The notes beneath the pieces are model-generated. The model searched no databases. It was not told where the DNA came from and saw only the letters and a program-made list of their open reading frames with translations. Source: Fimbriimonas ginsengisoli Gsoil 348 (GTDB lineage: Bacteria > Armatimonadota > Fimbriimonadia > Fimbriimonadales > Fimbriimonadaceae). Taken from it: DNA of 64,000 nucleotides. Made by a program: the position numbers and the translations under genes. Numbering within the stretch: position 1 is the stretch's first letter; every line of letters starts with the position of its first letter. Positions 6,100-11,479 of the stretch are shown in pieces. The stretch lies in the NCBI RefSeq assembly GCF_000724625.1, contig NZ_CP007139.1:1240001-1304000 (forward strand). Direction: 5' to 3'.

Positions 6100-7596
6100 C
6101 TACTTCATGAGCGCCTTCACCACGTGCCCGTGAACGTCGGTGAGGCGGAAGTCACGTCCTTGATACGGGAAGGTGAGCTTGGCGTGGTCAACGCCGAGCA
6201 GCCATAGGAGAGTGGCCTGTAGGTCGTGAACGTGGACGGCTCCGTCGGTGAAGTCCTGCTTATTCGGGTCGAGAATCTTGCCGTCGGCGTCGGCGATGTT
6301 GTAGCCGTAGTCGTCGGTGCGGCCATAGGTCGTACCGGCGTTCACTCCGCCGCCCGCCATGAAGACAGTGAAGCAGCGCGGGTGATGGTCTCGGCCGAAA
6401 GAGTTGATATCGAGCGGGCCTTGCGAGTAGCTGGTCCGGCCGAACTCGCCGCCCCAGACCACAAGGGTGTCGTCCAGCATGCCAAGACGTTTTAGGTCTT
6501 TGATCAGCGCGGCGGCCGGCTGGTCCGTCTTGTGGCACTGGCTGGTGATCTCGCCTTTCAAGCCGCCGTGGTGGTCCCAACCCTGGTGGTAGAGCTGGAT
6601 GAAGCGAACCCCCTTTTGAGCGAGTCGCCGGGCGAGCAGACAGTTGGCGGCGAAGGTGCCGGGTTTGCGTGATTCGGGGCCGTAGAGCTCGAAGGTCTCG
6701 TTGGTCTCCTTGCTGAGATCGGTCACGTCCGGCACGCTGGTTTGCATTCGGTAGGCCATCTCGTATTGGGCGATCCGGCTCTCGATCTCCGGGTCTAGCT
6801 CTCGCTCGAACTCGTGCCGGTTGAGCTCTCCGAGCCGGTCGAGCATGGCGCGGCGACCGGAGCCGCAGATGCCGTCCGGGTTGGAGAGGTACAGCACCGG
6901 GTCGCCGCCCGATCGGAACCGGACGCCTTGGTAGCGAGAGTCTAGGAAGCCGCTTCCCCACAGCCGCGCGTAGAGCGGCTGGTCACCCTGGTTGGCGCTG
7001 GCGAGGACGACGAAGGTCGGCAAATCTTCGTTCATCGAGCCGAGGCCGTAGGAGAGCCAGGAGCCGAAGGAGGGACGTCCGGCCTGCTCGCTGCCGGTTT
7101 GGAAGAAAGTGATCGCCGGGTCGTGGTTGATCGCCTCGGTGAACATCGACTTGACGAAGCAGAGGTCGTCGGCAACGCCCGAGAGGTGAGGCAGGATCTC
7201 GCTGAACCAGGCGCCGCTCTCGCCGTGCTGGGCGAACTTGAACGGCGAACCGGCGAGCGGGATCACGCTCTGGTTGCTGCTCATGGCGGTCAGCCGCTGA
7301 CCGCGCCTGATGCCCGGCGGCAGGGGTTGGCCGTGCATCTGGTTCAGGAGCGGCTTGTAGTCGAACAGGTCCTGCTGCGCCGGTCCGCCGGCTTGGAAGA
7401 GGTAGATGATCCGCTTCGCCTTCGGCGCGTGGTGGAATTTGCCGAGGGGGGCGGCGGACTGCTGGCCGAGGGCGAGGTTTGGTAGCAGTGACGCAAGGGC
7501 GATCGCCCCAAACCCCTGCGCGGTGCGCCCGAAGAACTCGCGGCGGGTCAAGCCGAGGAGTTCGCGAAGGGGATTTTCGGGGTCGAGGGAGTGCAT
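6100..7596 (-). CDS. DUF1501 protein with Tat signal
   Basis: Exported sulfatase-like protein of 498 residues. The Tat signal TRREFFGRTAQGFGAIALAS lies near residue 17. The family is frequent in Planctomycetes, Verrucomicrobia and Armatimonadota, and is normally encoded next to a PSD1 cytochrome-domain protein. That partner is here, but a four-helix-bundle gene separates the two. Core motifs include GGPAQQDLFDYKP, WDHHGG and VWGGEFGRT. A clear ribosome binding site (AAAGGA, 9 nt before ATG) fits an internal operon gene. The physiological substrate is unknown; polysaccharide sulfate or cell-surface processing is often proposed. Confidence 0.92.
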   Translation of the reverse strand: MHSLDPENPLRELLGLTRREFFGRTAQGFGAIALASLLPNLALGQQSAAPLGKFHHAPKAKRIIYLFQAGGPAQQDLFDYKPLLNQMHGQPLPPGIRRGQRLTAMSSNQSVIPLAGSPFKFAQHGESGAWFSEILPHLSGVADDLCFVKSMFTEAINHDPAITFFQTGSEQAGRPSFGSWLSYGLGSMNEDLPTFVVLASANQGDQPLYARLWGSGFLDSRYQGVRFRSGGDPVLYLSNPDGICGSGRRAMLDRLGELNRHEFERELDPEIESRIAQYEMAYRMQTSVPDVTDLSKETNETFELYGPESRKPGTFAANCLLARRLAQKGVRFIQLYHQGWDHHGGLKGEITSQCHKTDQPAAALIKDLKRLGMLDDTLVVWGGEFGRTSYSQGPLDINSFGRDHHPRCFTVFMAGGGVNAGTTYGRTDDYGYNIADADGKILDPNKQDFTDGAVHVHDLQATLLWLLGVDHAKLTFPYQGRDFRLTDVHGHVVKALMK

Positions 7597-7624
7597 GGCT
7601 TAATTCCTTTGATGGGGATTGCAG

Positions 7625-7678
7625 TGGGTCTTATGGGACTGATGGGTCATCTGGGATACATGAGTCCCATAAGACCCA
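7625..7678. repeat. 16-bp inverted repeat beside the four-helix gene
   Basis: Arms TGGGTCTTATGGGACT (7625-7640) and its exact complement (7663-7678) enclose 22 nt that also contain ATGGGTC. It lies between the stop of the four-helix gene and the DUF1501 start. The arm CCCATAAGACCCAT recurs with one change on the other side of the gene (8284-8297). Confidence 0.85.
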
Positions 7679-7680
7679 TT

Positions 7681-8235
7681 TCAAAAGCCTCTTCGGTTTC
7701 GCCGCTCGCGGTAGATCCGCTCATTAATACCGCCTTCCTCGACGAGGCGATCGCTTAGCTGCTTCTTTATCTTATCAAGCAAATAGCACGTTTGCCTGAG
7801 AATGCAGACCATCGTGTTGGCGGCGGTCTCGGGTGACTTCTCCTCGATGTAGATCCGGTAGGTCGAGTAAGACTTTCCGTTTCGGTAAGCAAGACGCCGG
7901 ATGTATACCGCCTTCTCGTGATCCCTCGGCCACTCGGCCAGATTTCGCTGCCTCAGGAAATCCTGATAGTCGTTGAGCAGTTCCTCCAGGCTTGCACGTG
8001 CTACCCCGACTAACTTCAGCTCGGATGCACGCGAAGTCCCGCTCATCGAACTACCTTCCGCAATATTCTGCTTGCCGCTTCGAGCTGCCTGAACCATCTG
8101 GTCCACCGTACGATCTGTGGGCTTTAGGAATCGTCGGCAAAAAGCGACCGTTGCGTCGTGGATGATCACCGTGTTTTGGAACGCCTTGAGATCCCGGTAT
8201 CCACCGTGGGGCGGGAGCAAGGGTTCGTCGGCCAT
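7681..8235 (-). CDS. Four-helix-bundle protein (S23/Avd-like, suffix-domain type)
   Basis: A 184-residue helical protein related to the 23S rRNA intervening-sequence (S23) and Avd family. The diagnostic core is RTVDQMVQAARSGKQNIAEG (residue ~41) followed by SELKLVGVARASLEELLNDY (residue ~70). The C-terminal extension (YLLDKIKKQLSDRLVEEGG) fits the 'four helix bundle suffix' subtype. Such proteins form pentameric barrels; Avd members bind nucleic acid in diversity-generating retroelements, but no reverse transcriptase is near. The gene is wedged between the PSD1 and DUF1501 genes and flanked by related palindromes, which suggests insertion as a unit. Role unknown. Confidence 0.88.
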   Translation of the reverse strand: MADEPLLPPHGGYRDLKAFQNTVIIHDATVAFCRRFLKPTDRTVDQMVQAARSGKQNIAEGSSMSGTSRASELKLVGVARASLEELLNDYQDFLRQRNLAEWPRDHEKAVYIRRLAYRNGKSYSTYRIYIEEKSPETAANTMVCILRQTCYLLDKIKKQLSDRLVEEGGINERIYRERRNRRGF

Positions 8236-8267
8236 GGTGGGAAGAGAATATCACCTGAGACTCTTTG

Positions 8268-8306
8268 ATGGGACAAATGGAACCCCATAAGACGCATGTG
8301 TCCCAT
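8268..8306. repeat. Flanking repeat on the upstream side of the four-helix gene
   Basis: ATGGGACA (8268-8275) pairs with TGTCCCAT (8299-8306). Between them CCCATAAGACGCAT (8284-8297) matches 13 of 14 bases of the repeat on the other side of the four-helix gene (7667-7680 region). Confidence 0.7.
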
Positions 8307-8335
8307 TTGACTCATTCGTCTTACTCAAGATAGAT

Positions 8336-11300
8336 TTACCTCTTCCACACCACCGCGTCCGAATTCAAGACAGTCTGTACCGTCACCGTCATGGCGGCCA
8401 GAACGACGGGGTCAATCGTTGTCGGCTTCGACTCTCCCACGTGGACCAACTTGTCCGCGTCGGCGGGGGTTGATTTGAACTGGGATAGCTGCTCCTCGTG
8501 GCCTTGGGTGAGAACCGCCATTTCTCGGGCGTCGGGATTGCGGCCGGCGAGGCGGCGGAAGATTAGCCGGATTCTCTCGCCCGTATCGGCGGACGCAACC
8601 AAGGCGTGATCCGCCAAGGCTCTGGCGGCTTCTACGAATTGCACATCGTTCAGCAAGACCAGGGCCTGCAACGGAGTGCTGGTCGTCGGTCGGCGGATGG
8701 CGCAGGCTTCTCGCGAGGTGGCGTCGAAGAGGAGCATGCTCGGGACGGGCGTCGTCCGCTTCCACGTGGAGTAAAGGCTTCGGCGGTAGAGGTCGGCCCC
8801 CTTGCTCTGCACGAAGCCGGGGCTCATCGTGTTGTTTTCCTGCCAGATTCCGGCGGGCTGGTACGGGTTCACCGGGGGACCGCCGACCCTGGGATTGAGG
8901 AGGCCGGCCGCGGCTAGGGCGGTATCACGGACCATCTCGGCCGATAGACGGTGGCTAGGGCCGCGCGCGAGCAAACGGTTCTCCGGGTCGACCTTTGCCA
9001 GCTTGGCCGTGAGCTTGGAATCTTGACGGTAGGTCGCCGAGAGAACCATCGTTCGCAACAGCGCCTTGACATCCCAACCGGAATTCACAAAGCGGCGGGC
9101 GAGGTAGTCGAGAAGCTCCGGATGGGTCGGGCGCGAACCTTGTGAGCCAAAGTTCTCGCTGGTTTCCACCAGTCCGACGCCGAAAATCATTTGCCAAAGC
9201 CGGTTCACCGCCACCCTGGCGGTAAGCGGATTGTCCGACCGAGTCGACCACTTGGCCAGAGCGAGGCGGTCGTTTTTCCCGGCGACCTTCAAGGGCGGAA
9301 GCGACTTCGGCACGCCTCGATTAACGAGGGTGGCGGCGGTTCGAGGCGCATCGTAACGGCCGCGGGCGAGGAGGTAGGAGGGGATCGGCTTTTTCGCCTC
9401 TTCCATCACCGAGATCTCGTATACCGCTTCCTCGGCGTTCGCCAACTGCTCTTGAGCCTTCCTCACCGCTTCCTGGGCCGCCCTGACCTCGGGGTCCACG
9501 GCAGCGATGTAATAGCCCGGAAGATCGCTAGGAGCTGCGTTGCCGTAGAGCTGGGCCACTTCGAACGCGCTCAGCTCCCGGTCGGCGAAAGCGACGTCGT
9601 CGAGCTTGCCACCCTTGAAACCGGAATCGCGGAAACGTTGGGCGAACGACCACTCCCCGCCGCTGGGGCCGAGGTCGCCGTAGGCGTTGATCTTCTTCCA
9701 GAGCTGATCGTTCAAAACCGTCGTTTCGGCCGGTCGGCCGTCGAGATAGATCTTGAGTCCGGCGGCACGTCCGCTCCCGTCCCACGACCACGCGACTTGC
9801 GACCACTTCCCTTTCGGCACCTGGGCTTTGGTTCGGACGACGATCGCGTTTCCGGGGGCGTGCCGCATTACTCGGGCGGTGAGATAGCCGTCCTCCAGCA
9901 TTAGCTCGAAGCCGCAAAAGCCGACGTCGGTTCCGCCGGTCCGATGCATCAGGACGACCGGTCCCTTCCCGGGGCGCGGATCTTGGATCCAGAACGACCA
10001 GGTGAAGGCGTCCCACCTTTCTCTTCCGGGTAGGCCTCGGAAGAGGACGCCGTTGTCGCCGTCGAAGAGGACCGCCTTCCCCCGATGGCCGGGAACGAGG
10101 TCAACGTTTTGGATCTTTGCTCCGGTCAAATTTCCGCCCAGATCGTTGGCGAACTTACCGCCGTCGTCTCCGTCGAGAGAAAACCGGGCAAGGAGTTGAG
10201 GCGTCTCGGGCGGCTTGCCCGTCCATTGCCGATACCGCTGCTCAGCGTCCTTCGTTGCCTTGGCGAGATTCAGTTGGACTTGTCGATCCGCTGATTTCAA
10301 TTCGTTCAACTTCCGCTCTTGCTCTGCGGTCGGGAGCAGGAGCGAGGGGGTGGGGACGATCTCGGTGCTGAGCAGCAGGCCGTATTCGTCGATCGAGTTG
10401 AAGTAGCCGAAGAGCTGGTAGTACTCCTTCTGAGTAATCGGATCGAATTTGTGATCGTGACAGCGGGCGCACCCGACGGTCAGGCCGAGCACGGCGGTTC
10501 CGTAGGTGTTTACACGGTCGGCGGCGTACTCGGTCTTGAATTCGAGGGCGATCGACCCGCCCTCGTTGGATTGCCTGTGGAGACGGTTGAAGGCGGTCGC
10601 GAGACGTTGGTCGCGGGTTGGATTCTTCAGCAGGTCGCCGGCGATTTGGTCGGTGAGGAACTGGTCGTATGGCAGGTTTTGGTTGAACGATTTGACGACC
10701 CAGTCGCGGTACGGCCAAGTCGGCATCAGCAGGTCGGATTGGTAGCCGTAACTGTCCGAGTAGCGGGCGGCGTCGAGCCAATCGACGGCGATTCGCTCTC
10801 CGAAGTGGGGGCTGGCGAGGAGGCGATCGACGACCTTCTCGAACGCGGCCGGGCTCTTATCGGATTGAAATTCGGCGATCTCTCGTTCGGTCGGCGGAAG
10901 CCCGGTAAGGTCCAAGCTCACTCGCCGCAGCCAGCGCAGACGGTCGGCGGGTGGGCTGGGCGCCAGTCCCTCTTTCTTTAGGCGAGCCAGGATGAACCGG
11001 TCGAGGTCGCCGCGCGGCCAAGTGCTCTTGACGTGGGGAACAGCAACGTTTGCGGGGACCGGCTGAAACGACCAAAGCCGCCCGTAAGTCGCCCCCTCGG
11101 CGATCCAACGGGTGAGGATCGCGATCTCCTCCTTTGTCAGCGATTTGCCGCTCGACGGAGGAGGCATCGTCATCGTCGGATGGTTGATGCGCTTGACGAC
11201 GAGGCTGTCGTTCGGCTTCCAGGGGACGATCGGAAATCGGCCACCCCGATTTGCAAAAGCCCCTTCGGGCGTGTCGAGCCGCATGCCGGCCATCCGGCTC

Positions 11301-11479
11301 CCCGCGTCGGGGCCGTGGCACTTGAAGCATTTGTCGGAGAGGATCGGGAGGACGTCGCGCGAATAGCTGAGTTTTTCTTTCGCTGCCGGTTTCTGGGCGG
11401 GCCACAGCGCGGCGCCCGCGAGCATCGAGGCGCTGACCAACATCAGCAAAAAGCCAGATACTCCGCCCTGAGTCCGCAT
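8336..11479 (-). CDS. PSD1 and cytochrome-C domain protein (DUF1549/DUF1553) with LamG-like domain
   Basis: Large secreted protein of 1047 residues. It has an N-terminal signal helix, then a planctomycete-type cytochrome C box with haem motif CFKCH (near residue 51), DUF1549 (residues ~150-360, including GCARCHDHKFDPITQ), a concanavalin/LamG-like insert (residues ~435-650, LLARFSLDGDDGGKF), and DUF1553 (residues ~760-1010, NPLTARVAVNRLWQMIFGVG). The family is usually next to DUF1501 and is thought to act on the cell surface on complex polysaccharides, but no activity is established. It is the first gene of the minus-strand cluster and has a TAACCT box 6 nt before ATG. Confidence 0.93.
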   Translation of the reverse strand: MRTQGGVSGFLLMLVSASMLAGAALWPAQKPAAKEKLSYSRDVLPILSDKCFKCHGPDAGSRMAGMRLDTPEGAFANRGGRFPIVPWKPNDSLVVKRINHPTMTMPPPSSGKSLTKEEIAILTRWIAEGATYGRLWSFQPVPANVAVPHVKSTWPRGDLDRFILARLKKEGLAPSPPADRLRWLRRVSLDLTGLPPTEREIAEFQSDKSPAAFEKVVDRLLASPHFGERIAVDWLDAARYSDSYGYQSDLLMPTWPYRDWVVKSFNQNLPYDQFLTDQIAGDLLKNPTRDQRLATAFNRLHRQSNEGGSIALEFKTEYAADRVNTYGTAVLGLTVGCARCHDHKFDPITQKEYYQLFGYFNSIDEYGLLLSTEIVPTPSLLLPTAEQERKLNELKSADRQVQLNLAKATKDAEQRYRQWTGKPPETPQLLARFSLDGDDGGKFANDLGGNLTGAKIQNVDLVPGHRGKAVLFDGDNGVLFRGLPGRERWDAFTWSFWIQDPRPGKGPVVLMHRTGGTDVGFCGFELMLEDGYLTARVMRHAPGNAIVVRTKAQVPKGKWSQVAWSWDGSGRAAGLKIYLDGRPAETTVLNDQLWKKINAYGDLGPSGGEWSFAQRFRDSGFKGGKLDDVAFADRELSAFEVAQLYGNAAPSDLPGYYIAAVDPEVRAAQEAVRKAQEQLANAEEAVYEISVMEEAKKPIPSYLLARGRYDAPRTAATLVNRGVPKSLPPLKVAGKNDRLALAKWSTRSDNPLTARVAVNRLWQMIFGVGLVETSENFGSQGSRPTHPELLDYLARRFVNSGWDVKALLRTMVLSATYRQDSKLTAKLAKVDPENRLLARGPSHRLSAEMVRDTALAAAGLLNPRVGGPPVNPYQPAGIWQENNTMSPGFVQSKGADLYRRSLYSTWKRTTPVPSMLLFDATSREACAIRRPTTSTPLQALVLLNDVQFVEAARALADHALVASADTGERIRLIFRRLAGRNPDAREMAVLTQGHEEQLSQFKSTPADADKLVHVGESKPTTIDPVVLAAMTVTVQTVLNSDAVVWKR

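Follow-up and report, generated by a model that had tools for sequence, protein, structure and literature searches.

The window analyzed here is a 64,000-nt stretch of the genome of Fimbriimonas ginsengisoli Gsoil 348 (contig NZ_CP007139.1, positions 1,240,001 to 1,304,000), which consists of a single contig of 5.23 Mb. Within this window, a gene for a four-helix-bundle protein of the S23/IVP superfamily, bordered on either side by an array of short repeats, separates the PSD1 and DUF1501 genes of an operon (Table 1). This gene order had been claimed in an earlier note made from the sequence alone (the original prediction), and it was borne out by the open reading frame (ORF) list and the profile matches. 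The unit of gene and arrays is examined here as a candidate insertion element. Only one other listed ORF of at least 80 aa reaches into the insert, an 82-aa plus-strand frame at positions 7479-7727 that overlaps the DUF1501 gene.

Table 1. Features of the PSD1-DUF1501 locus (window coordinates)
Feature	Position	Strand	Basis
DUF1501 gene, downstream neighbor in host operon	6100..7596	-	Pfam
Lineage-specific insert, PSD1 stop to DUF1501 start (maximum span, 739 nt)	7597..8335	.	Comparison with orthologous loci
Array/palindrome 3' of the gene: 9-nt units TGGGTCTTA, TGGGACTGA, TGGGTCATC, TGGGATACA, then complementary units to CCCATAAGACCCAT	7619..7684	.	Reading, inverted-pair, word and fold analysis
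Four-helix-bundle gene, TIGR02436 core plus TIGR04258 suffix, 184 aa	7681..8235	-	ORF list, profile matches, predicted model
Array 5' of the gene: TGGGACAAA, TGGAACCCC, ATAAGACGC, ATGTGTCCC, ATTTGACTC, ATTCGTCTT	8267..8326	.	Reading and word search
PSCyt1-PSCyt2-LamG-PSD1 gene, upstream neighbor in host operon	8336..11479	-	Pfam

In searches against Pfam and NCBIfam, the window protein matched four-helix models only. It passed the NCBIfam cutoffs for TIGR02436 (27 versus 24) and TIGR04258 (47.5 versus 40) and stayed under the Pfam gathering score for PF05635 (23S_rRNA_IVP; 25.4 versus 33.8). No Y1 (HUH) transposase domain was among the Pfam and NCBIfam matches, the Avd model NF033474 was not matched in NCBIfam (the only matches there being TIGR04258 and TIGR02436), and PADLOC returned nothing for the window protein and nothing for a plain S23 protein. 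The predicted structural model, with a predicted local distance difference test (pLDDT) value of 89, features long helices at residues 17-36, 42-63, 69-96, and 135-167; as the TIGR04258 match starts at residue 135, the suffix provides the fourth of these helices in the model. The best Foldseek match of the model was the S23-family chain 2gsc_B (probability, 1.00; E value, 0.035), aligned with a template modeling (TM) score of 0.75 by target length and 0.48 by query length and a root mean square deviation of 7.2; chains of the S23-family structure 2rld ranked lower, and nothing was obtained at an E value of 0.001 or below. In the following, genes with the TIGR04258 suffix are referred to as suffix type and PF05635 genes as plain S23 genes.

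According to the original prediction, palindromes bracket the gene. Repeats do occur on both sides; however, both flanks read in 9-nt steps, and degenerate arrays of a 9-nt period, built from CCCATNNGN or its complement, describe them better than copies of a single palindrome would. The word CCCATAAGACSCAT, searched with up to two mismatches, has five matches in the window, all of them within the two flanks, compared with 0.42 expected from shuffling. The left flank, located 3' of the gene, contains a 26-nt inverted pair with 88% complementarity (7619-7644 and 7659-7684) and is predicted to form a strong hairpin of its own (z, -5.3), whereas the right flank, located 5' of the gene, folds weakly (z, -0.85). 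By eye, both flanks resemble entire gene-less palindromes of the same genome and share their orientation. A description of each flank as a plain intrinsic terminator or as a repetitive extragenic palindrome (REP) was rejected, since unrelated genomes also have arrays next to the element and folding of the 5' flank is weak.

Comparison with related genomes identified the insert as lineage specific. Of 30 DUF1501 loci retrieved from 81 genomes of the family, the 14 with an identity of at least 72%, the own locus included, were used. In 9 of the 13 orthologous loci (72 to 87% DUF1501 identity), PSD1 and DUF1501 are directly adjacent, as the original prediction had expected for this gene pair, with a spacing of 4 to 17 nt as opposed to 742 nt in the window. 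The four-helix gene is absent from these nine junctions, so it is not a constant member of the operon and is lineage specific at the window locus. Three of the 13 loci carry other inserts at the junction, namely, a DUF433-DUF5615 pair, an LTXXQ-like gene scoring below the cutoff, and an insert without a Pfam match; the remaining locus has no PSD1 within 1.5 kb of DUF1501. The DUF433-DUF5615 pair (L111:3054-3660 in genome G083), which we take to be toxin-antitoxin-like, indicates that the junction accepts differing inserts. With respect to a precise empty site, which the original prediction had proposed to look for, the uninterrupted gene pair was thus found in relatives, but an exact site with a target duplication was obtained only for plain S23 genes on cyanobacterial plasmids (see below). 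A DNA-level search for an empty site of the suffix-type locus L072 in the congeneric genomes G135 and G136 gave matches only on or near paralogous gene copies and none on the flanks.

The repeats flanking the window gene are not unique to this locus. A pattern of 2.5 units of the CCCATNNGN-type 9-nt array, with one mismatch allowed, has 59 matches in 28 clusters in the window's genome (reversed control, 0), two clusters being the window flanks and 26 lying at further places. No PF05635 match is located near 25 of these 26 clusters; the exception, at 3,074,854, lies about 0.7 kb from another PF05635 gene. In many of the 26, the shared sequence extends beyond the array on either side, and arrays of 7 nt (AACGCCC) or 8 nt (AACACCGC) lie next to them. 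A strictly intergenic location of all 26 was not established, as 10 of them are traversed by a stop-free frame of 450 nt or more. The triple AACGCCC heptamer forms a second dispersed array family of the same genome (e.g., C1:1446299-1446340, 3041663-3041732, and 4086767-4086850), and AACGCCC heptamers also adjoin the third S23 gene of this genome, at 4,101,268. The array words are largely genome specific: among nine other genomes, the own 9-nt word has one match each in G092 and G058 and none elsewhere, and among six genomes, CGCTAAA repeats are confined to G097 and AACGCCC repeats have 190 matches in the own genome, 45 in G058, and 0 or 1 in the other four.

Four-helix (S23/IVP) genes were found in 142 of the 291 genomes of the phylum, and a phage collection gave no S23 match. 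For plain S23 genes, 73 loci (30 + 40 + 3 own) were taken from the best matches listed, 68 of them with both flanks of sufficient length; the suffix motif was absent from all 73. The upstream flank matched the reverse complement of the downstream flank (score of at least 20) at 50 of the 68 loci. The corresponding counts were 10 of 544 for mispaired flanks, 0 of 64 for distal stretches from these loci, and 2 of 68 for pairs in direct orientation. The dominant period was 7 in 40 of 52 strong arrays. Three of four plain S23 proteins matched the Avd model weakly (29.9-36.8 bits versus a cutoff of 80), and the fourth (L288) gave no match. With respect to the proposed check of other such genes, the same array architecture recurs at them, with other words.

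TIGR04258 genes are present in 48 of the 291 genomes of the phylum. In the phylum suffix set (66 of 73 rows, two strong rows and five weak fragments being left out), a period-9 score of at least 28/45 was reached by 15 of 63 upstream and 13 of 65 downstream flanks, compared with 6 of 470 background windows. In a named multi-phylum set, consisting of the best 80 of at least 565 relatives, a 9-nt array at this threshold was found at 17 of the 80 loci versus 4 of 1126 windows (Fisher P, 8e-18), with 9 as the dominant period in 22 of 24 strong flanks; for the suffix set, the corresponding figure is 29 of 31 strong arrays. The words vary by genome, and by eye most of them contain GGAC (ATGGGACNN, ATAGGACNN, AAAGGACNN, GGTGGACNN). 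Period-9 GGWC arrays were enriched in genomes with a TIGR04258 gene (11 of 48 versus 7 of 243); this tally was made by hand, its threshold was chosen after the fact, and both genome size and periodic coding sequence confound it. Flank pairs were compared at the 127 loci with both flanks among 133 (53 of the 66 with products of at least 175 aa, plus the 80); 22 matched in inverted and 28 in direct orientation (controls, 15 of 1016 mispaired and 1 of 116 distal), which fits flanks that are palindromic in themselves.

Arrays were also found inside suffix-type genes. The loop leading to the fourth helix has, in our own delimitation, a modal length of 48 codons (20 of 53 proteins), and in the 26 loops of at least 52 codons the loop DNA matched the flank of its own locus (score of at least 18) in 13 cases, compared with 13 of 260 for flanks of other loci. 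Since 9 nt equal three codons, an array can grow in frame within the loop, as exemplified by SDSSDPSNSSDPSNPSD in L011. A C-terminal zinc ribbon motif of the topoisomerase type is present in 13 of the 66 phylum suffix proteins (L014, L023, L025, L027, L033, L063, L065, L081, L085, L086, L087, L090, and L091) and in none of the 80 of the named set; Pfam confirmed it in all three proteins tested (L033, L063, and L085). The ribbon points to nucleic acid binding by some suffix-type proteins.

Two further observations concern the surroundings of suffix-type genes. In G121:C2, G130:C91, and G101:C9 (L016, L024, and L026), a plain S23 gene precedes the suffix-type gene by about 2.5 kb. In L024 and L026, what comes before the suffix gene reads like the tail of groEL, suggestive of a hot spot around groESL. 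In G028, an extra gene of about 630 nt (L063:2660-3290), presumably Uma2/DUF820 nuclease-like as judged by its sequence, is located directly before the suffix-type gene and is missing in the related genome G029 (L065).

Filled and empty sites were found on plasmids. A plain S23 match was obtained in 28 plasmid records, 26 of which bear cyanobacterial names; the suffix type occurs in only one record of this collection, from Prevotella, whose flanks score 10 in inverted orientation. Judged by eye, about 11 of 12 cyanobacterial plasmid loci have short arrays, of heptamers or similar units, in both flanks. The best-resolved case comprises plasmids of about 97% identity, of which L285 and L301 are filled and L298, L299, and L300 are empty. 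The insert of 414-428 bp contains only the S23 gene and its arrays, and GTAAT is repeated at both borders as a 5-bp target duplication; the number of array units varies by one or two between near-identical copies. Border overlaps of 4-11 nt from an automated comparison were discarded, as the mismatch-tolerant method over-calls them. A Nostoc operon shared by five plasmids from two strains carries two different S23 elements at neighboring junctions (A and B), with reciprocal empty plasmids, and a third junction (C) holds paired arrays without an annotated gene on two of the five (L309 and L313). Similarly, at a site that contains an S23 gene in L286 and L287 and is empty in L304, L303 shows paired arrays with no gene annotated; L302 is an internally deleted copy of an element. 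In the predicted RNA of L301, the two end arrays pair with one another (fold z, -1.68).

Plain S23 genes were also observed in cas loci, between cas6 and cas4 or between cas10 and cmr3, on plasmids of Anabaena sp. 90 (L289), Pseudanabaena galeata (L294), and Picosynechococcus PCC 7003 (L296), with short-period arrays on both sides; such genes may therefore be insertions and not accessory factors. In the available part of PMC3936711, 18 S23 genes in cas loci are noted as an associated function, and the title of the XCC0516 paper, as cited there, describes the S23 family as crystallizing as five four-helix bundles.

The elements are preferentially oriented with their host genes. At 177 loci, scored by a crude longest-frame call, both neighbors lie on the strand of the four-helix gene in 97 cases and on the opposite strand in 18 (binomial P, 3e-14), with 62 mixed. 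Random insertion between codirectional genes predicts equal numbers, and the ratio of 97 to 18 thus constitutes a sense bias. It is present in both types, with 35 same-strand versus 9 opposite cases among 62 plain loci and 62 versus 9 among 115 suffix-type loci.

Taken together, these findings make it likely that the insert represents a minimal, selfish insertion element related to the intervening sequences (IVS) of 23S rRNA, with a protein that recognizes its own iterated ends. This reading draws on the array architecture, dispersal, and sense bias observed here and, for the plain type, also on the empty sites and gene-less copies. Insertion as such is documented by presence and absence of the insert in relatives, and the window copy probably arrived by the same route. 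The element appears to be one of a widespread, little-recognized class of insertions without an obvious transposase, in which the four-helix gene is the whole cargo, and the original idea of a cassette carrying its own repeats without a transposase is supported by the recurrence of the flanks outside the locus and by the empty orthologous junctions. The complete element would consist of one four-helix gene and a short-repeat array on each side, the array probably being bound by the protein as DNA or as a transcript stem. Plain members would mostly carry an inverted pair of arrays with 7-nt repeats; in the suffix subfamily, including the window gene, the repeats would be 9 nt long and mostly contain a GGAC core, and a single flank could be palindromic. 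Elements would enter between genes, mostly sense to the host operon, so that the host promoter could drive their transcription while the operon stays intact, and copies that lose the gene would persist as dispersed arrays. Strand cutting and joining would be carried out by an enzyme supplied in trans, which is favored by the restriction of the window protein to four-helix models and the presence of zinc ribbons elsewhere in the suffix family. More tentatively, and as a possibility to which we give somewhat less than even weight, S23/IVP four-helix proteins may be the sole element-encoded mobility protein of a new mobile class with iterated short-period ends, acting as a recombinase of a new kind or as partner of a host polymerase; the dispersed 7-, 8-, and 9-nt arrays, including the short tandemly repeated repetitive (STRR) heptamers of cyanobacteria, would be the footprints of this class, with a period set by the protein subfamily.

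Two alternatives retain mobility and differ in its agent. The transcript, with its end arrays paired, might be copied into DNA by a reverse transcriptase acting in trans, with the four-helix protein as an Avd-like partner and template slippage as a source of variable array copy number. The strong sense bias, the pairing of the end arrays in the predicted L301 RNA, the weak Avd matches of three of four plain S23 proteins, and the differences of one or two array units between near-identical copies argue for such an RNA route, but the L301 fold is unexceptional, selection for expression can also produce a sense bias, and both the window protein and L288 lack an Avd match; we regard it as possible, albeit on the unlikely side. 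Still somewhat less probable is DNA transposition in trans, with the arrays as degenerate terminal inverted repeats for the transposase of a resident insertion sequence (IS) and the four-helix protein as a passenger or regulator. That the repeat period tracks the four-helix subfamily (7 versus 9) would not be expected of a passenger, and the words vary between genomes, whereas the exact short target duplication GTAAT with inverted ends at the best-resolved site is what a transposase would leave, and the gene-less copies resemble miniature inverted-repeat transposable elements (MITEs).

Mobility of the unit itself is dispensed with in two other explanations. Dispersed host arrays might have come first, and the four-helix gene might have been picked up between two of them at the window locus by recombination. 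The 25 of 26 further arrays of the own genome without a nearby PF05635 match and the likeness of the window flanks to whole gene-less palindromes in the same orientation are compatible with such a capture, which we nevertheless hold to be improbable: arrays adjoin the gene in unrelated genomes and with unrelated words, so that repeated independent events would be needed, and they also occur in frame inside the gene. Even more doubtful, and in our estimate very improbable, is that the gene is a functional operon member serving its neighbors (CRISPR, restriction-modification, conjugation, or PSD1/DUF1501), the arrays being REP-like signals of the host. Although cas operons repeatedly contain four-helix genes (18 in cas loci in the part of PMC3936711 available) and others border type I restriction-modification genes, relatives have these junctions unoccupied, there is no relationship among the host operons, and the words tested follow the genome or the element and not the host operon.

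A number of observations weigh against a selfish insertion element or limit how far it can be generalized. Most suffix-type loci are without a strong array, 53 of the 80 named loci scoring below 26/45 in both flanks, and the upstream period-9 score of 30 at L026 reflects the Gly-Gly-Met tail of groEL, according to its translation as read, and not an array. Suffix-type genes lie beside type I restriction-modification genes at L021 and L025 (N6_Mtase) and at L005 and L008 (Methylase_S), all four with period-9 scores under 28 in both flanks; these copies are possibly domesticated. On the cyanobacterial plasmids, an inverted-flank score of at least 20 was reached at only 8 of 12 loci, and mispaired flanks passed in 19 of 132 comparisons because related plasmids share words. 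The arrays of L293 run in the same direction, those of L294 in both, L290 is weak, and L296 scores 17; at L285, the downstream array begins inside the gene, beyond the scored stretch. A clean target duplication, GTAAT, was obtained at one site only, the remaining pairs being too diverged. The border repeat at junction B (TAATG/TTATG) agrees in 4 of 5 positions, and TTCTA at junction A was rejected as a target duplication, since it resembles an array unit and may belong to the array. At the window locus itself, a target duplication cannot be read because the nearest relative is too diverged (DUF1501 protein identity, 87-88%). The word CAGTTGG occurs in more than one genome (nine matches in G125, eight in G097, and four in the own genome). 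Finally, Xanthomonas heptamer arrays of the same general kind lie in conserved, stable positions, according to the available part of PMC4692102.

Where an operon for CRISPR, restriction-modification, or conjugation contains an S23/IVP gene, the gene can be taken for an accessory factor, and this reading changes if such genes are selfish insertions. The mobility of rRNA intervening sequences and the origin of dispersed heptamer repeats, such as those of cyanobacteria, become testable questions, and the pairing of subfamily with period (7 versus 9), together with the filled and empty plasmid pairs, provides direct material for binding and mobility assays.

Several known systems share features with the element. 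RAYTs are HUH (Y1) transposases whose genes are flanked by palindromic repeats, and the RAYT/REPIN system is similar in having dispersed gene-less copies of the flanking repeat in the same genome, as are 25 of the 26 further clusters here; unlike RAYTs, the window protein matches four-helix models only, and its repeats are short-period arrays. Rickettsia palindromic elements are palindromic repeats tolerated in frame inside genes, comparable to the 9-nt arrays in the loop before the fourth helix of the suffix family, but the repeats described here belong to an element with a gene of its own. Avd, the accessory protein of diversity-generating retroelements, belongs to the same broad four-helix superfamily as S23; the likeness extends to the weak model matches of plain S23 proteins and not to the window protein. 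The cyanobacterial STRR and the GGGAATC heptamers are likewise dispersed 7-nt arrays, and similar heptamers adjoin S23 genes on cyanobacterial plasmids. In the part of PMC4692102 available, the GGGAATC arrays of Xanthomonas and Nostoc are described without an S23 gene and as generally not occurring with mobile elements. A general tie between S23 genes and flanking arrays, or a 9-nt suffix branch, was not found among the titles and abstracts listed in searches of the open-licence PubMed Central literature; as a negative result of this kind is weak evidence, novelty is claimed provisionally.

The closest counterpart is the IVS of 23S rRNA. As described in the available part of PMC4990558, the IVS of Coxiella burnetii comprises 428 nt with an S23 frame and complementary ends, a variable number of tandem GACAGAT heptamers precedes the gene, and mobility had been proposed. 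Like this IVS of about 430 nt, the window element carries a single S23-type gene; in contrast to the IVS, it lies between the protein genes PSD1 and DUF1501 and not inside rRNA, and its gene is of the suffix subfamily, with arrays of 9-nt units. As for the IVS stem, the 3' flank in the window folds on itself and the 5' flank only weakly, whereas the two ends pair with one another in the plain element L301. We therefore file the window element as a variant of the IVS kind, which departs from it in its location outside rRNA and agrees with it in gene type and general build.
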